Positions 10,702-40,427 of a stretch of DNA of 43,065 bases are shown one piece after another. The stretch comes from a virus. Where the stretch lies: IMG/VR virus record IMGVR_UViG_3300038713_000045, positions 1 to 43,065 of that record. The stretch is one strand, 5' to 3'. How positions within the stretch are numbered: position 1 is the stretch's first letter; every line of letters begins with the position of its first letter. The translations under genes were made by a program, and so were the position numbers. Under the pieces are notes generated by a model that was not told the origin of the DNA, made no database searches, and worked only from the letters and a program-made list of their open reading frames with translations.

Positions 10702-12102
10702 TTATAAGTCACTTAAGTTGTACATCATCTGAGTCTCAGGTAAAGTAATCTCAAGACCACCTTCGGTCAAAATCATATCTTTACGCAAGTCTTCATCATC
10801 TGATTGTACGTTAGTGGTAATAAAAGTATCACGATTAATACCGTTACCAACTAATGGTCTATATGAAAGTTTGCTCATATCAGCAAAAGCCATAAAACCA
10901 CTAGAGATACCTCTAAACAATGGTTCCTTGACTAAGTGAATTGTTCCATGAATAGTTTCGATAGACATAACTTTGTGTCCAAATGCACCTTCGCCTGGTT
11001 CAGACATTAGTCTAAATGGTGAATCACCATATCCTAATGAAGCATCCATAAATGCGCCGTTACCAAGTTTGTTAAAGAAGGTAATAACTGGTAAACCAGC
11101 TAAACACAATCTATCTCCACTACCACCCCTTGCTGGGTCAAATAGAACTTCAAGGTCAGATAACAACTGGTCATAAGTTAATGCTGAAGAAGCTAGTGTA
11201 CGTAAGTACGCTTTTCCAGATGTATAACTTAAATCACCAGAAACAGTAGGTGTAGAATTAACTAAAATATGTCCAACCAAACCTTCTGTGTATTGTACAG
11301 AACCTTGACGTTGTTTTTGTGAGAACAACATAGCTCTCTCAATATCAACCTTATGTTCACGTAATTTTATAGCCCACACTCTTTCCCACTCATTTGCATA
11401 TCCACGATAACGAGTAGCGTAAGCTGTATTTGTCATCTCAGCTGCAGTTTTAAAGATTTGTGTGTAACCATAGTTATCTTCTATTTGATTAGAAAATACG
11501 TCTGGTGACGCAGTTCCTTCAGCAAAAGCAGTTCCGATTACTTGACAACGTGAATTGTCTTTCAATTTATTATAATCAGTACCAGCTCCTGAATTAGAAA
11601 CACTAATTACTTTACCAGTAAATGTAGTAGTTGCTCCATTATCAACAGGTGCACTTTCTATTCTCATAATTACTTGAGCAACTGATTTGTCTGCAGCGTC
11701 ACTTGCGCCTGCACTTCCATCAGCAGTCTCAACTGCAAATACCATTCCCTTAATCAAATAATCAATAGATGTGCTTCCATCATCTACTGTTACTGTGTAT
11801 GTTGTACCAGCTGAAACAGCAGAACCACCATTTACAGCTCCGCTTAATAGAAAGTTACGACTTGTCCAATCAATTTTTGAACGGTCTTCTAAATAACGGA
11901 ATACTGAATCATCTGTTGGTACTTTACTTACTTTGCTTAAATAAACAAAGAAAGGTGACTCTTCAGGGGCTAAGTCTGCTACTCTATCACCAAAGTTATA
12001 GATTCTTCTTACGTCAGGAGTACCGCCTTGGGCGCTATCATGAGCGTTTGAAGAAGCTTGAACCATGTCAGTAGCTTTTACGATGCCTGAATTTATAGCC
12101 AT
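10702..12102 (-). CDS. major capsid protein, SU10/DUF5309 family
   Basis: A 466-residue major capsid protein of the SU10 (DUF5309) HK97-fold type. The N-terminal arm includes FGDRVADLAPEESPFFVYLS, the typical motif of this family. An inserted beta-rich region (about 85-190) probably forms a surface domain. The core contains RGYANEWERVWAIKLREHKV, and the C-terminal part has IHGTIHLVKEPLFRGIS. The gene follows the scaffold gene and precedes the decoration-like gene, as expected. The ribosome site AAGGAG is 8 bases from the ATG. Confidence 0.9.
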   Translation of the reverse strand: MAINSGIVKATDMVQASSNAHDSAQGGTPDVRRIYNFGDRVADLAPEESPFFVYLSKVSKVPTDDSVFRYLEDRSKIDWTSRNFLLSGAVNGGSAVSAGTTYTVTVDDGSTSIDYLIKGMVFAVETADGSAGASDAADKSVAQVIMRIESAPVDNGATTTFTGKVISVSNSGAGTDYNKLKDNSRCQVIGTAFAEGTASPDVFSNQIEDNYGYTQIFKTAAEMTNTAYATRYRGYANEWERVWAIKLREHKVDIERAMLFSQKQRQGSVQYTEGLVGHILVNSTPTVSGDLSYTSGKAYLRTLASSALTYDQLLSDLEVLFDPARGGSGDRLCLAGLPVITFFNKLGNGAFMDASLGYGDSPFRLMSEPGEGAFGHKVMSIETIHGTIHLVKEPLFRGISSGFMAFADMSKLSYRPLVGNGINRDTFITTNVQSDDEDLRKDMILTEGGLEITLPETQMMYNLSDL

Positions 12103-18628: not shown

Positions 18629-18646
18629 AAGCTTAAGCTTAAGCTT
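18629..18646. repeat. (AAGCTT)3 palindromic repeat, copy 1
   Basis: Three perfect head-to-tail AAGCTT hexamers. An AT-alternating tract lies about 30 bases to the left. Related blocks occur at 25924-25947 and 32829-32846, the only other large non-coding gaps. Confidence 0.85.
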
Positions 18647-18760
18647 CAGAAATTTTTTTGCAATATTTTTGTGAAGGTTGCTAGTGTTGATACAGTAAAA
18701 AGAAGGTGAGTCCGTATAAAAAGTTGAAAATAATTTTATTATGTATGTGGGTCTTTTATA

Positions 18761-21544: not shown

Positions 21545-23671
21545 ATGCAAAAAATCACCGTTAAGAACATACACAAGTCGCTTAACGAAAACGGTTATAT
21601 TTGTAATCTACCCTTCGCAGCTAGTGTAACTAGTGCCATGCACAGTAAACCTGTAAGTGGTGCATTTTTATACGGCCCTGCGGGTACTGGTAAGAGTTAT
21701 CTACCTATTGTACTAAGCAAAACACTCGGAGTAGAAATGTTTTTCTATCAATGTGCGCCAGGTACAAGAGAAGATGACCTAGTACTCAAAATGCTTCCTA
21801 GCGAAGATACTAAAAGTGGAGTAGAGATAAAAAAGTCAACTGTTTTTAAAGCTGCTGAAGCGTCACACAAACGTAAAGTGATGCTAGTGCTTGACGAGTG
21901 GGATAAGACTAGACCGACTGCTGATGGATTCTTTCTAGACTTTTTACAATATGGTAGGTTATCTATTCCTGGCAATACTGTCGAAGCTAATCTAGAGAAT
22001 ATGTTTATATTCTTTACAGCTAACGATGAACGTGAATTTCACGAAGCATTGCTACGTAGATTTCCTAAAATAGATGTAGACCCACTTGCACCAAGTCTTG
22101 TTATGTCTGCGTTGAGAATAACACATGATGGTCATCCGCATTTAGGTAACGCTATAAAGTTGTATGAGAAAGCAGTTGTTAGTGGTATGTCAAAACCCGC
22201 TACAATACAAGAACTCAGACAACTCTTAGATGCTATATCTTTGCTTGGTAATGGTGCAGATTGGAATGATATGGTATACCAATTTGTAACTAAAACGCCT
22301 GAGAATCACAAACTGTTAAAAGATGCAGAGAAGTTAGAGTACAAAAAGGACGATAAAGATAAGTTGCGTCTACAAGCTGACAGTTTTACAGGCGAGGTAA
22401 AAGAAGAAGAAGAAGAAGAGATAAACACAATAATGCCTACCAAGATAGCGTACCTTACACAATCAGAGCTTATAGATACTAACAAAGATGAGATTGCTGA
22501 CGATAGTATTTATGGAGTATATGATTACAATGAAGATAACTATTCTATGTTAGCTCATAAAGACATGCAACGAGACATAGTCAATGATGATGCTGGTATT
22601 GTTGGTGGTTTTGAAGCTATAGGTGACAAACTTGTAGCTAGTAAACCATTCCAACTTACAGATATTAGCTTTAATCAATTTCAAATAAGTGAGAAAACTG
22701 GTAATCAAAAGATATGTAATGGAGAGATTGCTCTTGTAGATAAAGATTGTAAGTTTCACGACCTACAAAGCTTATTTCAATGGAAATCTTATATTATCAG
22801 AAAATACTCACGTAATGAGGTTGTTGCTAGGCATCATCATGGGTACACTACTGATGATGATGGGTACAATGAGATGCTTATAGATTTAAAATGGACGCGT
22901 GAAAATGGTTTGATTATGATTTTCACATATAAACATTTTTATGCTGTAACACAGTATTTGAGTGGTTATAGTTCACGTAAATTTGTAGAAGTTAGTATTA
23001 TTGATGAAGACCCAACAGCATTGGTACTATTATCCGCAAACAAAGATGTATATCAGTGCGGTATACTTAATTTGCGTAAGTTAGTTAACCATAATCACAT
23101 TCAATTTTCATTTACGCTAAGAGACAACGATGATAGTTATTTGGATGGTAAGTATGGTTTTGCTGACATACAAAAACATGCAAGTACAATCATAAACAAT
23201 GGTAATGCTGATGTTATGTTTGTAGGCAAGAATTTTGATATTCGTGTCAAGAAAAACGTTACAGCGTCAAACAATCATCATTTATGTTATATTAACATAT
23301 ACGGTACTATACATCATGAAGTCGCAGCTAACATGACAAAAATGACATACAATGCATATGTTAGAAATGTAAGTAATGATAAAATGTATGGTTTGCCTGT
23401 TTACAAAGCAGTTAAATGTGATGGTAAAAAACTATCTACGCATTTAAAATCTAAAGGATGGACTTTTGCTGGTACTCGTAAAGGTTTGATGCAAAAGAAC
23501 TATGATAAATTAGGTATATGTAGATGCTTTGTATTTGATGATTTTGCTGTGTTTGGTTTTACAATGCTTAGTGAGCCTGAAATGGATAAAGAGTATGTTG
23601 ATTACTACAAATCTTTCGGCAACATGTGGAGAACAGTACACTCACTAGGAAAGTCAGCACAAAATGTCTAA
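21545..23671 (+). CDS. MoxR-type AAA+ ATPase with large unknown C-terminal region
   Basis: A 708-residue protein. The N-terminal AAA+ module has Walker A GPAGTGKS (44-51), Walker B VMLVLDEWD (112-120), sensor FFTANDE (156-162) and an arginine-finger-like RRFPKID (171-177). This is the pattern of MoxR/CobS ATPases, which remodel or load cofactors into target proteins together with VWA partners. Residues after about 280 start with an acidic linker (EEEEEE) and continue as a long region of no family I recognise. The gene overlaps the VWA-like gene downstream by 8 bases. Confidence 0.82.
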   Translation: MQKITVKNIHKSLNENGYICNLPFAASVTSAMHSKPVSGAFLYGPAGTGKSYLPIVLSKTLGVEMFFYQCAPGTREDDLVLKMLPSEDTKSGVEIKKSTVFKAAEASHKRKVMLVLDEWDKTRPTADGFFLDFLQYGRLSIPGNTVEANLENMFIFFTANDEREFHEALLRRFPKIDVDPLAPSLVMSALRITHDGHPHLGNAIKLYEKAVVSGMSKPATIQELRQLLDAISLLGNGADWNDMVYQFVTKTPENHKLLKDAEKLEYKKDDKDKLRLQADSFTGEVKEEEEEEINTIMPTKIAYLTQSELIDTNKDEIADDSIYGVYDYNEDNYSMLAHKDMQRDIVNDDAGIVGGFEAIGDKLVASKPFQLTDISFNQFQISEKTGNQKICNGEIALVDKDCKFHDLQSLFQWKSYIIRKYSRNEVVARHHHGYTTDDDGYNEMLIDLKWTRENGLIMIFTYKHFYAVTQYLSGYSSRKFVEVSIIDEDPTALVLLSANKDVYQCGILNLRKLVNHNHIQFSFTLRDNDDSYLDGKYGFADIQKHASTIINNGNADVMFVGKNFDIRVKKNVTASNNHHLCYINIYGTIHHEVAANMTKMTYNAYVRNVSNDKMYGLPVYKAVKCDGKKLSTHLKSKGWTFAGTRKGLMQKNYDKLGICRCFVFDDFAVFGFTMLSEPEMDKEYVDYYKSFGNMWRTVHSLGKSAQNV

Positions 23672-24653
23672 GATAGTACGTAACTGGAGAAATTGGAAAG
23701 AACCACAAGCTCCGAGTGGTCATAAAGAGCCCCGCCATCCGAATATTATGGGTGGTGGGGTTAAAGCTGACTCAGACTTTACAACATTAAAAGATAAAGT
23801 ACAAGCACATTCGACTAATAATGTTACAAGAGTAGCTAAAAAATCATTCAAACAAACTAAATTAGCAAAACCTAGTTTTAATATGACTAGCACAATAAAA
23901 AATCAACTAAAAGACATGACCAAAATGTCACAAGAAAGGAAAATTGCTAAATTTGAAGACCATGTTGCATGGTCAGAGGGTGTGCAACGTGACTTAACTC
24001 ATAAAACTAATCAGAACAGAGTCGTTAGCATGTTAAATACTGTAGAAATTACTAAAAATAAGAGGCTCGCATCAAGTTTAGCTGTTATGATTAGTAAATT
24101 AGCTGAGGATATGATAGGTGAGCCTGTTATTGGTGATGATGAGTGGGATTTTGACGCGTTATTAAACAGAAGTTTTACAAAACGCAACATCAATCATTGC
24201 AAACAGTCACGCGAAATGGACAAGATTGTTATAAGTCTTGATACATCACCTAGTTGCAGACATTTGTCAAAGTTTTACACGACCATTGCACATTTAAGTT
24301 GTAAGTTAGGATTAGTTGACATATACGCTAGTCCCAATGGTTATGTAACCCACATGTTTAATAGCAGAACAATGAAATATGAACCTATCTTTGACATAGA
24401 AAAAGACCAAGACTATATAAAAGCAGGTTTGCAAACACTAGATAACTTTTTTCATAACAGAGCTATTATACATTTCTCAGATTGCGATGGTTATGAATAC
24501 ATAATAAATTCATCAGCAAACAATACTATGCATTGGTTTTCATGTGATTATGTTGACTCTAAGTGGTATGCACGTCGCAACCAATGGCATGGTACATTGT
24601 ATGAAGTTTATGATGAAGAAAGCTTTTTAACAACAATAAGAAAAATGAGGTAA
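23664..24653 (+). CDS. VWA-like partner of the MoxR ATPase
   Basis: A 329-residue protein. The N-terminal 100 residues are basic and probably disordered. Residues from about 185 look like a von Willebrand factor A domain: a strand then DTSPS (Asp193, Ser195, Ser197), matching the DxSxS metal site. Later come an internal strand GLVDIYASPNG and IIHFSDCDGYEY, in the place of the third metal-site loop. The rest of the fold is divergent. With the overlapping ATPase this resembles MoxR-VWA pairs such as CobS-CobT and RavA-ViaA. The pairing is inferred from gene overlap and the motif. Confidence 0.7.
   Translation: MSKIVRNWRNWKEPQAPSGHKEPRHPNIMGGGVKADSDFTTLKDKVQAHSTNNVTRVAKKSFKQTKLAKPSFNMTSTIKNQLKDMTKMSQERKIAKFEDHVAWSEGVQRDLTHKTNQNRVVSMLNTVEITKNKRLASSLAVMISKLAEDMIGEPVIGDDEWDFDALLNRSFTKRNINHCKQSREMDKIVISLDTSPSCRHLSKFYTTIAHLSCKLGLVDIYASPNGYVTHMFNSRTMKYEPIFDIEKDQDYIKAGLQTLDNFFHNRAIIHFSDCDGYEYIINSSANNTMHWFSCDYVDSKWYARRNQWHGTLYEVYDEESFLTTIRKMR
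23730..23760 (+). other. GC-rich hairpin inside the VWA gene
   Basis: CCCCGCCATCC (23730-23740) pairs with GGGTGGTGGGG (23750-23760) through 11 pairs, two of them G-U, with a 9-base AT-rich loop. It starts 67 bases into the VWA-like gene. Such a strong stem stands out against the AT-rich coding sequence. It might tune expression of the VWA protein relative to the ATPase. Confidence 0.5.
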
Positions 24654-24655
24654 TA

Positions 24656-25159
24656 ATGAATGCAGATAAAGAACAAATAGAAAATACACAAGCAGTCCAA
24701 GTTAACATAATGATAAAAAGTGGTAACTACGAAAACCATGATTTGAATGGTAAAACCGCTTCTCATGTAGCAGCAGATTTACATGAGTTTATGAACGTAT
24801 CAAACTATCAAATTGTAAAGTTTTACGTATTTGTTAAGAGTTATCTACAAGAGCGTAAAGGTATTGAAAGATATTTGAATGGTGATACTTTGATTGAGAA
24901 AATCATAAATGCTTGTATGACAAATGTAGCTACAGATATGGCACACAAAACGTTTAGTAAGTTATTAAATAAACATACTGTTAAGTTTAAGGTTAGTAAA
25001 AGATACAATAAACTTTTTAAAGAACTTGCATTTGCAAAATCAACAGAATTAACACAGAAAGCATTTGATAAGTTTTGTCATAGTAAATATGGTGTAGTAG
25101 GAGAAGTAGCTGGTGATGATTATCCACAAGTAGATATGCACATGAAAGGTCAAAGTTAA
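24656..25159 (+). CDS. hypothetical third gene of the MoxR-VWA operon
   Basis: A 167-residue soluble protein, mostly helical (HEFMNVSNYQIVKFYVFVKS), with a basic second half. No family recognised. It begins two bases after the VWA stop, and its own stop overlaps the next ATG. It may be an adaptor or substrate of the ATPase system, but only adjacency supports that. Confidence 0.55.
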   Translation: MNADKEQIENTQAVQVNIMIKSGNYENHDLNGKTASHVAADLHEFMNVSNYQIVKFYVFVKSYLQERKGIERYLNGDTLIEKIINACMTNVATDMAHKTFSKLLNKHTVKFKVSKRYNKLFKELAFAKSTELTQKAFDKFCHSKYGVVGEVAGDDYPQVDMHMKGQS

Positions 25160-25776
25160 TGGGATTTGATATTTATGGTATGCAACCTAGTGGTGAGCAA
25201 AAACCAGATGTAAATTGGTATGATGAACCTACTGTAAAAGCGTATTTTGCATGGCAAAACAATACCAAAGGTGCTTATTTTCGCTCAAATGTATGGGGAT
25301 GGCCTGGTATATGGTCGTATATAACTACGCAATGTGGTGACATATTGACAGTAAAAGATGCTGAAGGTGGTTGTCATAACGGTGGTCACATCATTACAAA
25401 GACAAAAGCGTTAGCTATACATAAAAAACTGTCTGAATTAGATAAACAAGGTTTAATAGATGCCTATGAAAAAGAAGAGAAGGACAGAGTAGATGCTATG
25501 CCTGATATTGATTGTAGTATATGTGATGGTACTGGCACACGTCATGAATGGGTAGGATGGGAGAGTGAAGAAGAGTGGTTAAAACATAATGATTCGCTTG
25601 AGAGCAACAATCGCATGGTCTCTGGATATGAATGGGCTAACAAATGTAAAGGGTGTAATGGGTGTGAAGGTACAGGCAAAAGAAGACCTAATAGAGCGTC
25701 TTACTTTTTTAGTGCAGATTTGATGCGTGAGTTTATAGATTTCTGTAAATACTCAGGAGGTTTTCAGATATGCTAG
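25159..25776 (+). CDS. phage zinc-finger protein with DnaJ-like CxxCxGxG motifs
   Basis: A 205-residue protein. The N-terminal part has MGFDIYGMQP and YFRSNVWGWPGIWSYI, a signature I know from a widespread phage hypothetical family. Residues 118-124 (CSICDGTG) and about 163-173 (CKGCNGCEGTG) form DnaJ-type CxxCxGxG zinc motifs. The family is uncharacterised; protein folding or nucleic-acid binding are guesses. It overlaps the next small gene by 7 bases. Confidence 0.7.
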   Translation: MGFDIYGMQPSGEQKPDVNWYDEPTVKAYFAWQNNTKGAYFRSNVWGWPGIWSYITTQCGDILTVKDAEGGCHNGGHIITKTKALAIHKKLSELDKQGLIDAYEKEEKDRVDAMPDIDCSICDGTGTRHEWVGWESEEEWLKHNDSLESNNRMVSGYEWANKCKGCNGCEGTGKRRPNRASYFFSADLMREFIDFCKYSGGFQIC

Positions 25777-25904: not shown

Positions 25905-25923
25905 ACCATAAAAATATAGGCTT

Positions 25924-25947
25924 AAGCTTTAGTTTAAGCTTAAGCTT
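25924..25947. repeat. (AAGCTT)n repeat, copy 2
   Basis: AAGCTT at 25924-25929, a degenerate unit TAGTTT, then AAGCTT twice (25936-25947), all in one 6-base register. It lies in the 25905-26080 gap between two groups of early genes, followed by AT-rich DNA with three TATAAT hexamers. Confidence 0.8.
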
Positions 25948-26033
25948 ATATTTGTTATAGCTAAGTATAATTATTAATTATAATATGCGTCAAGTGTAAT
26001 TTTAAATACAAAAAAACATAAAAAAAGTATTGA

Positions 26034-32828: not shown

Positions 32829-32846
32829 AAGCTTAAGCTTAAGCTG
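32829..32846. repeat. (AAGCTT)n repeat, copy 3
   Basis: AAGCTT at 32829-32834 and 32835-32840, then AAGCTG. It begins just past the stop of the last early gene. An AT-alternating tract follows to the right, the reverse of the order seen around copy 1, so copies 1 and 3 flank the early block in mirror fashion. Confidence 0.85.
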
Positions 32847-34139: not shown

Positions 34140-37100
34140 TTAATATTGGAGTTGTGGAATTTTAGATTCTGCTGATGGTCTAATTTGAGAACTAACACTA
34201 GAATCAGTATCCATAGGTGGTAAAAATGGGTCTTTGTCAAATTGATTTCTAAATTTGCTTATCGCAAAATTCATTTCTCTTAATCTTTTTTGATAAATAT
34301 TTTCTATTTCCATTTCTTCTGCTTTTGTTTTATCATCTATTTTTGACATATATAAATCATATCTTGTCTTACCCTCAGTTGCGCGTCTTTTACGCCAAGA
34401 ACTAGGTATTGGTCTTTGTGACGTGAGTATAGTTTTAAGATTTGACTTAGCTTCTTTTTTAGCTTTATGTGGTATTTTTATTAATGATGGATTACTATTT
34501 ACAACAGATTGAGCTACATAGTTTCTAGCCGCATAATAAACTCGAGCTTTTTCTTCTGGACTAGCGTTAGACCAAAAAACTTCTTTTACCGCTCTGTAAT
34601 ATGGACTTTTAGTAGTTAATGATGATAGCTCATCACCAAGATATGGTGTCTTTTTAAAATATACGTTAACAAATTGTCTTTGTCTTCTTTGGGAATCATT
34701 GTATTTTTTTCTGTCAGGCAAATTTTGATTTTCATACACAGTTAAAAGTCTATCAAAAAAAACTACATTTTCTGTCGTTAAATCTTTTAATGTTTGACCT
34801 ACAAACTTTTTACCACTAACTAAAGCTAACGTATTAGTAACTAATGATTTAACAGCTCTTACTGTAGCTGGTTGAAAAGAATCAACAACGTTACCATAAT
34901 CATCCATAGCATTGCTTGCTATACCTAAACCCTCAGCTCTTAAAGCTAATTCATATAATTGTTCTGATTGTGTTTTAAATCTATTCCTTGTGTCTTCTCC
35001 TAGAGCCCTGTAATGAGCACTAAATATAGCAGCTCCTGTAACAGGTAACATTGATATGTATCTTAATATAGGAACAGGATTACCATCTGTTATAATTGGT
35101 TTTATAACTGAGTTTGCTATATTTTCTGACATTCTATACGCTACTCTATAAAATAGAGTTAATGGTTTAGCCCAATTCTTACCCATCCATTTTGGTACAA
35201 AAGGTAAACTTGGGCCACCTTGAGTTATTAAATGTGACATTTGTTGAGCTTGTTGTATTAACTCTGGTCTTGTGTGCATTTGTGTACTACCTAAGTTCAC
35301 TAAGTCAGAAATTTGTTTGTCTGTAAATTTGAAAACATCAGTCAATGTTCTCATAGAAGATTCTTTAGACACTCCTTTATTCATAGGACTTTTAACATCA
35401 TTTAGATTGTCTATATGCATTCTTAACGCTGGTTCTGCTATCGACGCACTAACTATTCTATTTATAATCTCAGTTTGTCTCATCATGCCTGGATTATATT
35501 TTGAATATACAATCCTACCTGACAACAACTCGTGTACACCTGCGTCCTTACCACCAATTCTACCAGTTAAATTTGACATACTTTTAGGATTTGCTAAAGC
35601 GTTAAACAAACCATTTATAGCTCCTCTAAAACCAAATACCGTTGCATTACTTTGTTGACCTAAAATAAAGTTTTTGTAACCAGATAGAGGAGAAGATAAA
35701 CCTATTTGAGCTGTAACAGATGTTAGTCTACTAGCCGCCCTGTAATACCAAGCGTCTTTTTGGACTGCGTTAAGTTGTAATTCTAACGACTCTTTTGCCC
35801 AGTTAGCAAATGACTCATTAGATTCTAAAGCTATTTTATTTATCTCCTTTAAAGATTGGTCACTTTTTGCTCCACCTCTACCAAAATATTCAAAAGTAGG
35901 TGATATGTGAGCAATGTTTTGTCCATACCTACTAAGTATCTTATCAAAACTTCTTTCATATACATCTATGACCCTGCCTACATCTCTACCTACCCCATCT
36001 TTATCTACAACTCTAGAACCTTTAGATACAGGATTACCATTACTATCTTTGAAAGATGTTAATTTGATAATTCTGTTAGTTCCTTGTTCTATCGCTATTA
36101 CAGGTGGTAAATCAGCTATTCTAGTGTATTGTGTACCAAATACTCCAGATTGGTCTCTCCAAAATTTATCTATATTATTAATATATTTTAATGCTTCTTG
36201 TTGTTTAAATGATTGACTACCTTGCATTTTCATAAACGTCGGGTCTGTAGTAGCTATAACATCAGCTACACCCAATCTAAAATCTTCATTTAGACCGACT
36301 AATTCTTTGAACTCGTTTGTAATCATTCTGGTCAAGTAGTTTTTTTCTATATGATGATTAAATTTTCCATAAGCTCCATCTTTATTATGTACAACAACAT
36401 ACCTATCAGATTCTTTTTTTGGATTTTTTCTTTCTACTCTGTTAGTTAATTCTGTAACTGAATAATTATTTTTATCAGTCCAGTTAAAAGCATATCTAGT
36501 CTTATCGACTATAACCCAACCACCATCATACTTTCCTGTTTGAGGATTAAAAGTTCTTAATGTTTTTATGTAGTCATCTGCTATTGGAAATTTAGTAGTT
36601 AAAGTCTCTCTACCTTCTTGATTTAAAGAAATCAACTTGTTCTTTTCTGTATTTTTTAAAACTTTTGCAAATCCTTTTGGCATTGCTAAAGCTCCATTAC
36701 TATCTAGAAATGATATACCTTCTACTAATCTTATAGCATCATATCCATTTTCTAATTCTATAAACTTTCCTTTTGAATCATAAGACTCAAATAGTTTTTC
36801 ATGTTGAGCATTTGTTGTTTTTGCGTTACGAACCTCTACTCCTTTGTTTATCATATACTCAGCTAATACTTTGTGTCTAAAAGCAGTATAAACTCTTATC
36901 ATACTATTTGTATCATACTTGTCTAAAGATTTATCATAAAAATCTTTATATTTTCTGTCAATCAAAGTTGAAAAATTGTCAAAGTCTTTATTTGTTAAGT
37001 TAAAAGCTTTTTTAAATTCTATCTTAAATTGAGAAAAATCTCCTGTTATAGATTGTCTAGCTAACTCATGTTTTACCATTCTTCTTCCTAATAATTGAGC

Positions 37101-40100
37101 AGCTTTTGATAAAGACATCATTAACTGTGTATAAATAGGTAGAACATATTCAGATGCTTTTTGAGTAAATCTTCTATATTTGCTTTGTATATTACTTTGC
37201 ATTGTTACTGGGGGCACAATAGATGTCTGTTTACTATTATATGTTATGGAGTTTCCATCATTACTAATAATGCTTGTAGCTCCTTTTAATTCATCAAACG
37301 TCATATTTTTAGAAGAACCTCTGCTTTCAGGATATATATTTTCTAATAAAAATCTATATTCTGCATCAGGCATTTTTTCTTCTTTTTGTACTTGTTTTAA
37401 TTTTCTACGTTGTTTTTCCCATATTGCATATTCAGGGCCTTGTAAATTTTTAGCAGTTTGAACTGTATTAGACAACATAGATTCTAAAGAATTAGCGTTT
37501 AACCAATATTCTCTAGCAAACGCTTCAGCGTCTGCCTCTGTTTTAAACGTAGCAATCTTTCCATTTCTCATAGCTACAGCTGATTTTGGTTGTATTTTAT
37601 TTGTAGTTCTATAATCCCATTGAAAGTTTACAGTAAAAGGAGCGTCATTGGATGGATTTAACTCTGGATAAGACTCATAAACTTCTTTATCTATCTTAGC
37701 AGTTTTTTCTAATTTATTTATATCAGGGTATTGAGATATGTCAGCATTCCTAAATTGTTCAAATCTTATTCTTTCTTTTATACGTTCATCAGATAATCTT
37801 CTAGCAAGTAATTCTAGTTGGTCTTTTTGATAAGCTAAAGCTCTATCTGGAGTAACATCTCCTTTTGGAAAAGCAGATTTACCATTAGAAAGTTTTAATT
37901 TTGTAAGTCTATTAGGAGCGTAAAAGGTATATTCTTTTTCTACAAATTCTGTAACTTGTTTATCTACATTCTTATATTTACCTTCTGTGAAATCTTCATA
38001 CAATTGTTTTCTAGATTTATTATATCCTGCTTTTACCGCTGAAGCGTGTATATCTTTGAACATTTGTGTATTGTATGGAAATGTTTGTTTAGCTCCAAAA
38101 AATCCACCTCTATTTTCTTCCCAAGCTCTTTTATAAGCTTTTACTTCTTGAGCATGATATGTAAAATTATCTTCAGCTGTTCTACCTGATACTTCTTTTT
38201 CTATAGCAAATTTACCTTTTTCACTTTTATAGAAAGTAGATTCTTGATTATCCTTAAAACCAGTTTCTTTAATAAACTTAGATAATTCTTTTTTATTTGG
38301 AGGTCTACTTTTAGGAACCGTAACTAATTGTGTAATTTGTTTATTAGCTCCACCTCTAGGCTTATCAGTCATTAATAATTTTAATAATGGACTATTAACA
38401 TTCCATTGAAAAGTTCTTTGTCCTTGTTGGTATTGTTCAAAAAGAATAGGATTTTCTGATATTTCTTTAAATCTTGGATTTTCTTTGTTCTTATCTAAAG
38501 ATGGTCTTTCTTGTTGATTTGCTTTTTCTATAGCTTCTCTTACTCTTTTTGGTATTTGACCATCTAATGCTATTATCTGTTTTCTAGAACCACCATGGGT
38601 TTTAATTTCAAATATAGGAACATTTCCAAAAAAATTAACACCTTTATATGGTTCTCTTTTCATCCATTCAGGCATAATAAAATTTTGTCTATCAGCGTTT
38701 TTAAAATCTTTCATTCGACCTATATATTTACCAAAACCTGCTTTTGTATAATCAATTTGACCTGTAGCGGTATCATATTTAGGTATTCTTACCATATCAC
38801 CAACTTTAAAACTTATTCCTTCTAAACCTTTATCTGCAACTTGTTTAGTTTTGTCCACACTTATTGCTTGTCTATTGTCAAAAGGTTGTTCCCCTCTACG
38901 TTTTAGAGGGTCTACAAATAACTGCTCTGTTGGTTTTTGTACATTTTCAGTTACTTTATAACCTCTATTAGATTCAAGAGCTTCTCTTAACTCTTTTTCA
39001 TGTAATTTTATATCTTTAAGTTTTTGTTTTTCAGATGGAGATAGGTCTTTACCTTGTGGTGTTGTTCTGAGAGGAGCTATGTTTTTACTAAATTTGTCTT
39101 GAAATTTTTTCAATACATCTGGCCTACTGCCACCAAGAACAGTAGATACTTGTCCTGTGTCTATGTCCCTATATACAGCCCTATGTTTTGCGTTATCTTT
39201 AGTTGGTGTTTCTATTCTTAGTAACTCAACCACTCTTTCTGGATTATTTTTTTCTGAATATGTTGGTTTTTTTATAGACTCTTTCATAGAAGCTTCTACA
39301 ACATTATTCATTCCTTTAGATGCCATAACATCATTTAACCTAGACTCAGAAAGTTTAGGGTTTGCAAGTCTTAAAGCGTATCCTATTTTTTCCTTGATTT
39401 GTAATGAATTTAATCCTTGTCTAGCGTAATGAAATCCAACTAAAGCAGAACCATGTATCATTCTTTCTTCTAAACTCATGTCAGTTTGACCCAAATCAGA
39501 ATACATACCAGCTCCCATCAATGACAAAGGTTCTGCACCGTATTTAACACCCTTAGAAGCATATCCTAACATAGTAGGTAAACCAGCTACAGAAAATACA
39601 ACTCCTGAAGCTGCGTCAAAAGTAAGTTGTTCTAACCTACCTTCTAATTGTAATGGTAATTTAGTTTGACCTACAAGAGCCATAGTCCCCATATTATTAG
39701 CAAAAAGATTTAAAGCTCGTGCGTGTTTAGGATTTTTTGCAGCTAACTTCATTATTGTATTTTCATATCCAGGCAATGCTTTTCCTAAAAACCCTGATGC
39801 ATTAGGAACCATTCCTTCTCTATGAGCACTTGCAAATACGTCATCATGTTTGTTAGCATAATGAGAAGCTCGATTTCTTATTTTTTTAGCTAAATTAATT
39901 CTTCCAGCTTTCTGAGCTGCTTCAGATTTTTTTATTAGTTTATTAAATTGATGATATTTTTTATATATACTTGCAGCTCTAGTTCCTCCAAGAGCTATAC
40001 CTCCTACTCCACCCATCGCCAGAGACGCACCTATCATTAAAGGAGTCGTACCAGCTATACTTCCTAAAGCTTCAGCAAGTATTTCTGAACGTTCATCAGC

Positions 40101-40427
40101 TGGTGAAAATTGTGATTCCATTGTTCCAAAATGAGGTACAGCAGCTAATTTTGCAGCTTCACCAAATCTTTCCCAAAAAGTTGCATCTTGATAATCGTTT
40201 TCATTCATTATAGTACCAACTTGTTCAGAATTTCTTTTAGCCCTATCATAAGCTGATTCTACGTTACCTATGTCGAATGTTTTCATAGGTTCAGGTTCTT
40301 GAATTTGTTTGTTTACAATAGAATCAAGATATAATTTTTCTACATCTTGTTCAGTAGGAGCATTGAAACCATCTAATGTAAAACGATAACCTTTGTAGTC
40401 TACTGTATATCTGTATTTTTGTTGCAT
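34140..40427 (-). CDS. giant 2095-aa putative internal/ejection protein
   Basis: The largest gene of the window. The N-terminus (MQQKYRYTVDYKGYRFTLDG) is a short beta domain seen in large phage virion proteins. Gly/Ala-rich hydrophobic stretches occur at about 120-148 and 270-310, and another at about 1790-1810, all able to insert in membranes. Long helical, charged regions fill the rest. No lysozyme, protease or polymerase motif was recognised by eye. Size, composition and place fit an ejection protein like T7 gp16, which leaves the capsid to help DNA cross the cell envelope. The start is coupled to the upstream stop. Confidence 0.65.
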   Translation of the reverse strand: MQQKYRYTVDYKGYRFTLDGFNAPTEQDVEKLYLDSIVNKQIQEPEPMKTFDIGNVESAYDRAKRNSEQVGTIMNENDYQDATFWERFGEAAKLAAVPHFGTMESQFSPADERSEILAEALGSIAGTTPLMIGASLAMGGVGGIALGGTRAASIYKKYHQFNKLIKKSEAAQKAGRINLAKKIRNRASHYANKHDDVFASAHREGMVPNASGFLGKALPGYENTIMKLAAKNPKHARALNLFANNMGTMALVGQTKLPLQLEGRLEQLTFDAASGVVFSVAGLPTMLGYASKGVKYGAEPLSLMGAGMYSDLGQTDMSLEERMIHGSALVGFHYARQGLNSLQIKEKIGYALRLANPKLSESRLNDVMASKGMNNVVEASMKESIKKPTYSEKNNPERVVELLRIETPTKDNAKHRAVYRDIDTGQVSTVLGGSRPDVLKKFQDKFSKNIAPLRTTPQGKDLSPSEKQKLKDIKLHEKELREALESNRGYKVTENVQKPTEQLFVDPLKRRGEQPFDNRQAISVDKTKQVADKGLEGISFKVGDMVRIPKYDTATGQIDYTKAGFGKYIGRMKDFKNADRQNFIMPEWMKREPYKGVNFFGNVPIFEIKTHGGSRKQIIALDGQIPKRVREAIEKANQQERPSLDKNKENPRFKEISENPILFEQYQQGQRTFQWNVNSPLLKLLMTDKPRGGANKQITQLVTVPKSRPPNKKELSKFIKETGFKDNQESTFYKSEKGKFAIEKEVSGRTAEDNFTYHAQEVKAYKRAWEENRGGFFGAKQTFPYNTQMFKDIHASAVKAGYNKSRKQLYEDFTEGKYKNVDKQVTEFVEKEYTFYAPNRLTKLKLSNGKSAFPKGDVTPDRALAYQKDQLELLARRLSDERIKERIRFEQFRNADISQYPDINKLEKTAKIDKEVYESYPELNPSNDAPFTVNFQWDYRTTNKIQPKSAVAMRNGKIATFKTEADAEAFAREYWLNANSLESMLSNTVQTAKNLQGPEYAIWEKQRRKLKQVQKEEKMPDAEYRFLLENIYPESRGSSKNMTFDELKGATSIISNDGNSITYNSKQTSIVPPVTMQSNIQSKYRRFTQKASEYVLPIYTQLMMSLSKAAQLLGRRMVKHELARQSITGDFSQFKIEFKKAFNLTNKDFDNFSTLIDRKYKDFYDKSLDKYDTNSMIRVYTAFRHKVLAEYMINKGVEVRNAKTTNAQHEKLFESYDSKGKFIELENGYDAIRLVEGISFLDSNGALAMPKGFAKVLKNTEKNKLISLNQEGRETLTTKFPIADDYIKTLRTFNPQTGKYDGGWVIVDKTRYAFNWTDKNNYSVTELTNRVERKNPKKESDRYVVVHNKDGAYGKFNHHIEKNYLTRMITNEFKELVGLNEDFRLGVADVIATTDPTFMKMQGSQSFKQQEALKYINNIDKFWRDQSGVFGTQYTRIADLPPVIAIEQGTNRIIKLTSFKDSNGNPVSKGSRVVDKDGVGRDVGRVIDVYERSFDKILSRYGQNIAHISPTFEYFGRGGAKSDQSLKEINKIALESNESFANWAKESLELQLNAVQKDAWYYRAASRLTSVTAQIGLSSPLSGYKNFILGQQSNATVFGFRGAINGLFNALANPKSMSNLTGRIGGKDAGVHELLSGRIVYSKYNPGMMRQTEIINRIVSASIAEPALRMHIDNLNDVKSPMNKGVSKESSMRTLTDVFKFTDKQISDLVNLGSTQMHTRPELIQQAQQMSHLITQGGPSLPFVPKWMGKNWAKPLTLFYRVAYRMSENIANSVIKPIITDGNPVPILRYISMLPVTGAAIFSAHYRALGEDTRNRFKTQSEQLYELALRAEGLGIASNAMDDYGNVVDSFQPATVRAVKSLVTNTLALVSGKKFVGQTLKDLTTENVVFFDRLLTVYENQNLPDRKKYNDSQRRQRQFVNVYFKKTPYLGDELSSLTTKSPYYRAVKEVFWSNASPEEKARVYYAARNYVAQSVVNSNPSLIKIPHKAKKEAKSNLKTILTSQRPIPSSWRKRRATEGKTRYDLYMSKIDDKTKAEEMEIENIYQKRLREMNFAISKFRNQFDKDPFLPPMDTDSSVSSQIRPSAESKIPQLQY

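Follow-up and report, generated by a model that had tools for sequence, protein, structure and literature searches.

A phage AAA+ ATPase with a VWA-type partner, a large C-terminal extension and a third gene: a probable remodelling machine resembling NorQ-NorD

Gene pairs encoding an AAA+ ATPase and a VWA protein have been widely reported in phages (PMC8651126, PMC7824862, PMC2784036, PMC7911831) and, of the gene pairs in tailed phages that still lack an explanation, are among the more common. The locus described here raises the question of what such a pair might do when its ATPase carries a large C-terminal extension and a third gene follows directly. It lies in an uncultivated virus record of 47,056 bases (IMGVR_UViG_3300038713_000045), of which we analysed positions 1 to 43,065, a stretch of 43,065 nucleotides that we call the window. 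An initial annotation had described a module of three successively overlapping genes, and open reading frames for all three were located. The features considered in this study are the following:

21545..23671, + strand: AAA+ ATPase gene, 708 aa (open reading frame; Pfam AAA_5)
ATPase residues ~34-265, + strand: AAA_5 domain (Pfam, conserved motifs)
21791..21868, + strand: putative helix-2 insert of the ATPase, residues ~83-108, containing LPSEDTKSG (near-invariant stretch)
22358..23668, + strand: ATPase C-terminal extension, ~410 residues, residues 272-708 (AlphaFold2, Foldseek)
23664..24653, + strand: predicted VWA-fold adaptor gene, 329 aa (open reading frame; AlphaFold2 model and Foldseek)
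24117..24224, + strand: putative pore finger of the VWA protein, residues 152-187 (conserved, directly before the MIDAS strand)
24240..24254, + strand: MIDAS motif DTSPS (DxSxS), residues 193-197, D193-T-S195-P-S197 (sequence)
24656..25159, + strand: third gene, 167 aa, no known family (open reading frame; position kept directly 3' of the VWA gene)
25159..25776, + strand: fourth gene, 205 aa, cysteine-rich, no known family (open reading frame)
25910..25955, no strand assigned: hairpin with a 20-pair stem, 3' of the fourth gene, the longest found in the record

The annotated overlaps are correct for the ATPase and VWA genes, which share 8 nt, but the third gene begins 2 nt past the VWA stop without overlapping it, and instead overlaps the fourth gene by 1 nt. 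The module is part of a + strand block (~19.0-32.8 kb) where its neighbours encode a pyrimidine-dimer glycosylase, a Cas4-like nuclease, an exonuclease, a DnaB helicase, RusA and a DNA methyltransferase, while the genes for a P22-type portal, an SU10-type major capsid protein, the terminase and the tail are on the - strand. The terminase is less than 27% identical to those of isolates among the matches listed, and the portal had no match at E<=1e-10 in 50,697 phage records. Expression timing, early versus late, is read here from gene order only; in a scan for sigma-70 promoters, sites were rarer than in shuffled sequence. The structural-gene strand also encodes a 2095-aa protein (34140-40427) that has no Pfam or PHROG match.

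The clear AAA+ motifs initially noted in the 708-residue protein are well supported. AAA_5, its best Pfam family, matches residues 41-173 above the curated cut-off (E=1.3e-11), and Walker A (G44-S51), Walker B (D117-E118), the sensor-1 residue N160 and the arginine pair R171/R172 are invariant in nine aligned homologues, including those at 37% identity. The protein therefore has the AAA_5/AAA_3-type core, complete with Walker A, Walker B, sensor 1 and arginine finger, by which MoxR-like ATPases are recognised. Between Walker A and Walker B, residues ~83-108 form a near-invariant stretch whose length and position fit a helix-2 insert, and we infer from the alignment that it may be one; in NorQ, the helix-2 insert (H2i) contains the motif GRXLL/IXXXXT (PMC13036017). 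Membership of the MoxR clade is nevertheless not proven, because the AAA domain, searched by sequence against the PDB, retrieved ClpA (best match, E=1.5e-6) and Vps4 rather than MoxR proteins. The best PHROG match of the ATPase is a clamp loader (E=1.5e-8), and PHROG 249 (porphyrin biosynthesis) matches at E=1.6e-6 over residues 32-126, which is the P-loop region only. A match to the MadB ATPase in NCBIfam was rejected since its 33 bits are far below the cut-off of 475. We also observed a stand-alone AAA_5 ATPase with the same N-terminal NENGYIC motif (L022:5947-6918) in large virus contigs of 54-224 kb; in the fetched flanks of ATPases of this type, no VWA gene was recognised.

The 329-residue protein has no credible family in Pfam, PHROG, NCBIfam or PADLOC, such that the family searches initially proposed returned AAA_5 for the ATPase but neither a VWA nor a CobT family for its partner. 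Evidence for a VWA fold comes from structure prediction. The AlphaFold2 model has an overall pLDDT of 60.7 (mostly 67-88 in the C-terminal VWA part) and a pTM of 0.62, and its residues 188-329 follow the strand and helix order of VWA domains, with DTSPS closing the first strand. The best PDB match of this model in Foldseek is NorD (chain 9qhe_G, E=3e-3, probability 0.93), followed by a VWA protein and then by TFIIH entries. The TFIIH subunits p34 and p44 have VWA folds. As the Foldseek E-values miss 0.001 and the model is of middling confidence, we assign the VWA fold with moderate confidence. The DxSxS site reported in the initial annotation is real, since its D, S and S, as well as FxDxD and the later aspartates, are invariant in 11 VWA homologues. 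A candidate for the MIDAS threonine, T229, is kept in close relatives and lost in the distant locus L047. Outside these motifs, the segment directly preceding the MIDAS strand is among the best-conserved parts of the protein, with six invariant residues and a mean pairwise identity of 0.50 compared with 0.24-0.33 across most of the VWA fold; this putative finger has low pLDDT in the model. An N-terminal tryptophan-rich motif, (N/D)WR(N/D/K)W, is conserved too, in contrast to the linkers, and the last residue, a K/R, falls at one and the same position in all 11 VWA proteins.

The ATPase and VWA genes co-occur without exception. A single VWA sequence used as query against viral contigs gave no match, but profile searches succeeded. 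A VWA profile yielded eight more loci with 27-34% identity, which represent about four distinct lineages, and at all eight of them an ATPase gene lies directly upstream of the VWA gene and overlaps it. Likewise, the VWA gene is present in five of five further records chosen for the ATPase, and the gene order and exact 8-nt overlap were found in each of the six close genomes measured. Because order and overlap recur, and because the pair is intact in homologues as low as 27% identity, the arrangement is more than chance, and it gives the ATPase the adjacent VWA partner typical of MoxR-like systems. The initial annotation had proposed a MoxR-type ATPase with a VWA partner, naming a missing VWA fold and homologues that never co-occur as observations that would speak against it; the VWA-ordered model topped by NorD and the strict co-occurrence support the pairing instead.

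In isolated phages, the VWA protein had no match at E<=1, a distant homologue of it had none either, and the ATPase matched through its AAA core only. A scan of cellular genome contigs gave at least two matches, restricted to the ATPase core among the matches listed, and plasmids had no match to the module. A search with the fourth gene, independent of the pair, returned 11 records, of which one (L047) has both the ATPase and VWA genes. The other ten lack both, and among them are contigs of 55,665 and 45,052 bp in which the fourth gene, the nuclease and the terminase are all shared; records may be fragments, so any single absence is weak, but the joint pattern is clear. Since it is found in relatives without the pair, the fourth gene is separable and not part of the machine. 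A lineage whose pair comes with an extra large domain and an accompanying third protein, and whose relatives lack it, offers a clean comparison for identifying the targets of such machines in infected cells.

Based on the AAA_5 match, the NorD-topped VWA model, the invariant DxSxS site and the strict co-occurrence of the overlapping genes, we consider it probable that the two proteins constitute a remodelling machine of the MoxR-like AAA+/VWA kind, in a phage form that operates as NorQ-NorD does. In that system, a finger of NorD enters the NorQ ring, iron insertion is abolished when the finger is deleted, and binding is abolished when NorD lacks its last two residues (PMC13036017). The phage pair resembles it not only in composition and in the structural match to NorD, but also in having a conserved segment before the MIDAS where NorD has its finger, and a fixed end of the VWA protein, which agrees with the requirement for the NorD C-terminus. 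There are also clear differences. NorD has a large N-terminal domain that is lacking in the phage protein, NorQ consists of one AAA+ module and has no extension of ~410 residues, the pairs have no sequence similarity outside the motifs, and no nitric oxide reductase gene was recognised in the phage. By analogy, the phage ATPase would form a hexamer, with the segment before the metal site of the VWA protein entering the ring pore as a finger and its C-terminus anchoring it to the ring; ATP hydrolysis would then turn or pull the VWA protein, which would grip the target through its metal site, while choosing or holding that target is probably the task of the ATPase extension and of the third protein, which evolves fast. 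Given that the genes lie with DNA-processing genes, and that the structural genes are on the other strand, the target is more likely to be a complex involved in host or phage DNA metabolism or in host takeover than the virion or a corrin chelatase. Remodelling of host proteins, one of the roles initially suggested, is possible.

The large C-terminal region that had been reported as unmatched holds up as such: residues ~266-708 had no match, and a profile search of the extension against the PDB gave nothing credible. The extension is preceded by a charged linker and has a mean pairwise identity of 0.20-0.25 among 13 ATPase homologues, compared with 0.56-0.85 in the AAA regions. AlphaFold2, run with 13 sequences, modelled it with a pLDDT of 75.6 and a pTM of 0.76 as three successive beta-alpha-beta3/4-alpha units (secondary structure read by eye). 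Foldseek placed TBP chains at the top of the PDB matches (E=3.6e-4, probability 0.94), yet with TM-scores of at most 0.28, and the matches in a viral library included proteins named TBP or TFIID. As hhalign found no internal sequence repeats, the repeat reading derives from the model, and given the low TM-scores as well, we regard the tentative assignment of the folded part to TBP-like units as a lead rather than a result. It would be a further step, and one we think unlikely, that tandem TBP-like beta-alpha-beta4-alpha units bind nucleic acid or nucleoprotein and so aim the machine at DNA-bound complexes. If true, this would be the first AAA+/VWA machine directed at such complexes, for instance a host transcription or replication complex dismantled early in infection.

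Known viral pairs suggest other functions. In Acidianus two-tailed virus (ATV), the MoxR-type ATPase p618 binds the VWA protein p892 (PMC4124505), and an assembly role has been proposed for a jumbo-phage pair (PMC7824862), from which one could argue that the window pair is a virion-assembly chaperone. p618, however, is part of the virion and has been connected with tail development, whereas the window genes are surrounded by genes of DNA metabolism, with the terminase, portal, capsid and tail genes on the other strand, a location that speaks against virion assembly; moreover, the pair is absent from more distant relatives with a homologous terminase, which makes this function unlikely. It is less plausible still that the pair is a CobS-CobT that joins host CobN to form a cobaltochelatase and raise cobalamin supply. 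Viral CobST has been proposed for other tailed viruses (PMC8651126), and the phage CobS-CobT pairs of cyanophages and haloarchaeal tailed viruses are likewise phage-borne AAA+/VWA two-gene clusters whose AAA region matches PHROG 249. Nonetheless, the match to this family is confined to the P-loop region, CobS and CobT families are absent from the Pfam results even at E=1 and from those of NCBIfam, the ATPase bears the ~410-residue extension, a third gene is present, and no corrin-linked gene was recognised nearby and no CobN-like gene in the window. The cofactor control first envisaged is thus disfavoured, at least in its CobST form. Another such arrangement is that of gp24-gp25 of N4, noted in 2009 (PMC2784036), and its kin in Schitoviridae and other phages, where an AAA_5-type ATPase precedes a VWA protein near nucleotide-metabolism genes; AAA+/VWA pairs also occur in Hardycor1 and other haloviruses (PMC7911831). 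VWA proteins of the N4 gp25 type are present in 678 of 50,697 phage records. N4 gp25 has a DUF2201_N metallopeptidase-like and a DUF2201 VWA-like domain, neither of which is present in the window VWA protein and three homologues, and a profile comparison of the two proteins aligned only 27 residues around the metal site, which is not significant. By the sequence features examined, the window family would therefore fall outside both the CobST and N4 gp25 types. Phage AAA+/VWA pairs are already known as a kind, so that the initial description as unusual fits the extension and the third gene but would be too strong for the pair itself; what is new here is these two features and the lack of a relative among the isolates searched.

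Two further readings concern the module itself. Its restriction to one phage lineage, with relatives lacking it, and its fast-evolving third gene, as an arms race would predict, could point to a counter-defence or superinfection-exclusion device that takes apart a host immune complex. Against this, conservation of the ATPase core is extreme, the genes belong to the core set of the lineage, and the PADLOC defence library had no match to the module; the defence evasion initially proposed found no positive evidence, and we rate it as quite improbable. The matches to ClpA and the clamp loader, together with the lack of a VWA family match by sequence, would also fit a ClpA-like unfoldase or clamp-loader relative next to a protein that is not a functional VWA and whose DxSxS is coincidental. 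This is very unlikely given that strands and helices alternate in VWA order in a model whose top structural match is NorD, that DxSxS and FxDxD are invariant, that the linkage to the ATPase is strict, and that AAA_5 is the best Pfam family of the latter.

The third gene evolves fast, with 22-34% identity among close relatives. It has no Pfam or PHROG match, and a profile search against the PDB gave nothing credible; third-position genes of distant loci match it weakly, as in L050 and L049, or not at all. The fourth gene is 48-53% identical in close relatives and has a wider distribution than the ATPase/VWA pair. In the distant branch, a gene located between the third and the fourth (L047:7209-7997) has a weak ParB-domain match, under the curated cut-off. 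The long stem 3' of the fourth gene is retained in five relatives with altered sequence, and the hairpin is possibly the end of a transcription unit or an operator. A tandem palindrome, AAGCTTAAGCTT, is found at three intergenic junctions of the window, namely the late/early divergence (18629-18647), the region 3' of the fourth gene (25918-25948) and the end of the + strand block (32829-32844). In relatives, the corresponding sites carry AAGCCTAGGCCTAGGCTT, in whole or in part (L007, 3127 and 11024-11042; L006, 4498 and 12238), and the palindromes vary together within each genome, as putative sites of one phage regulator would.
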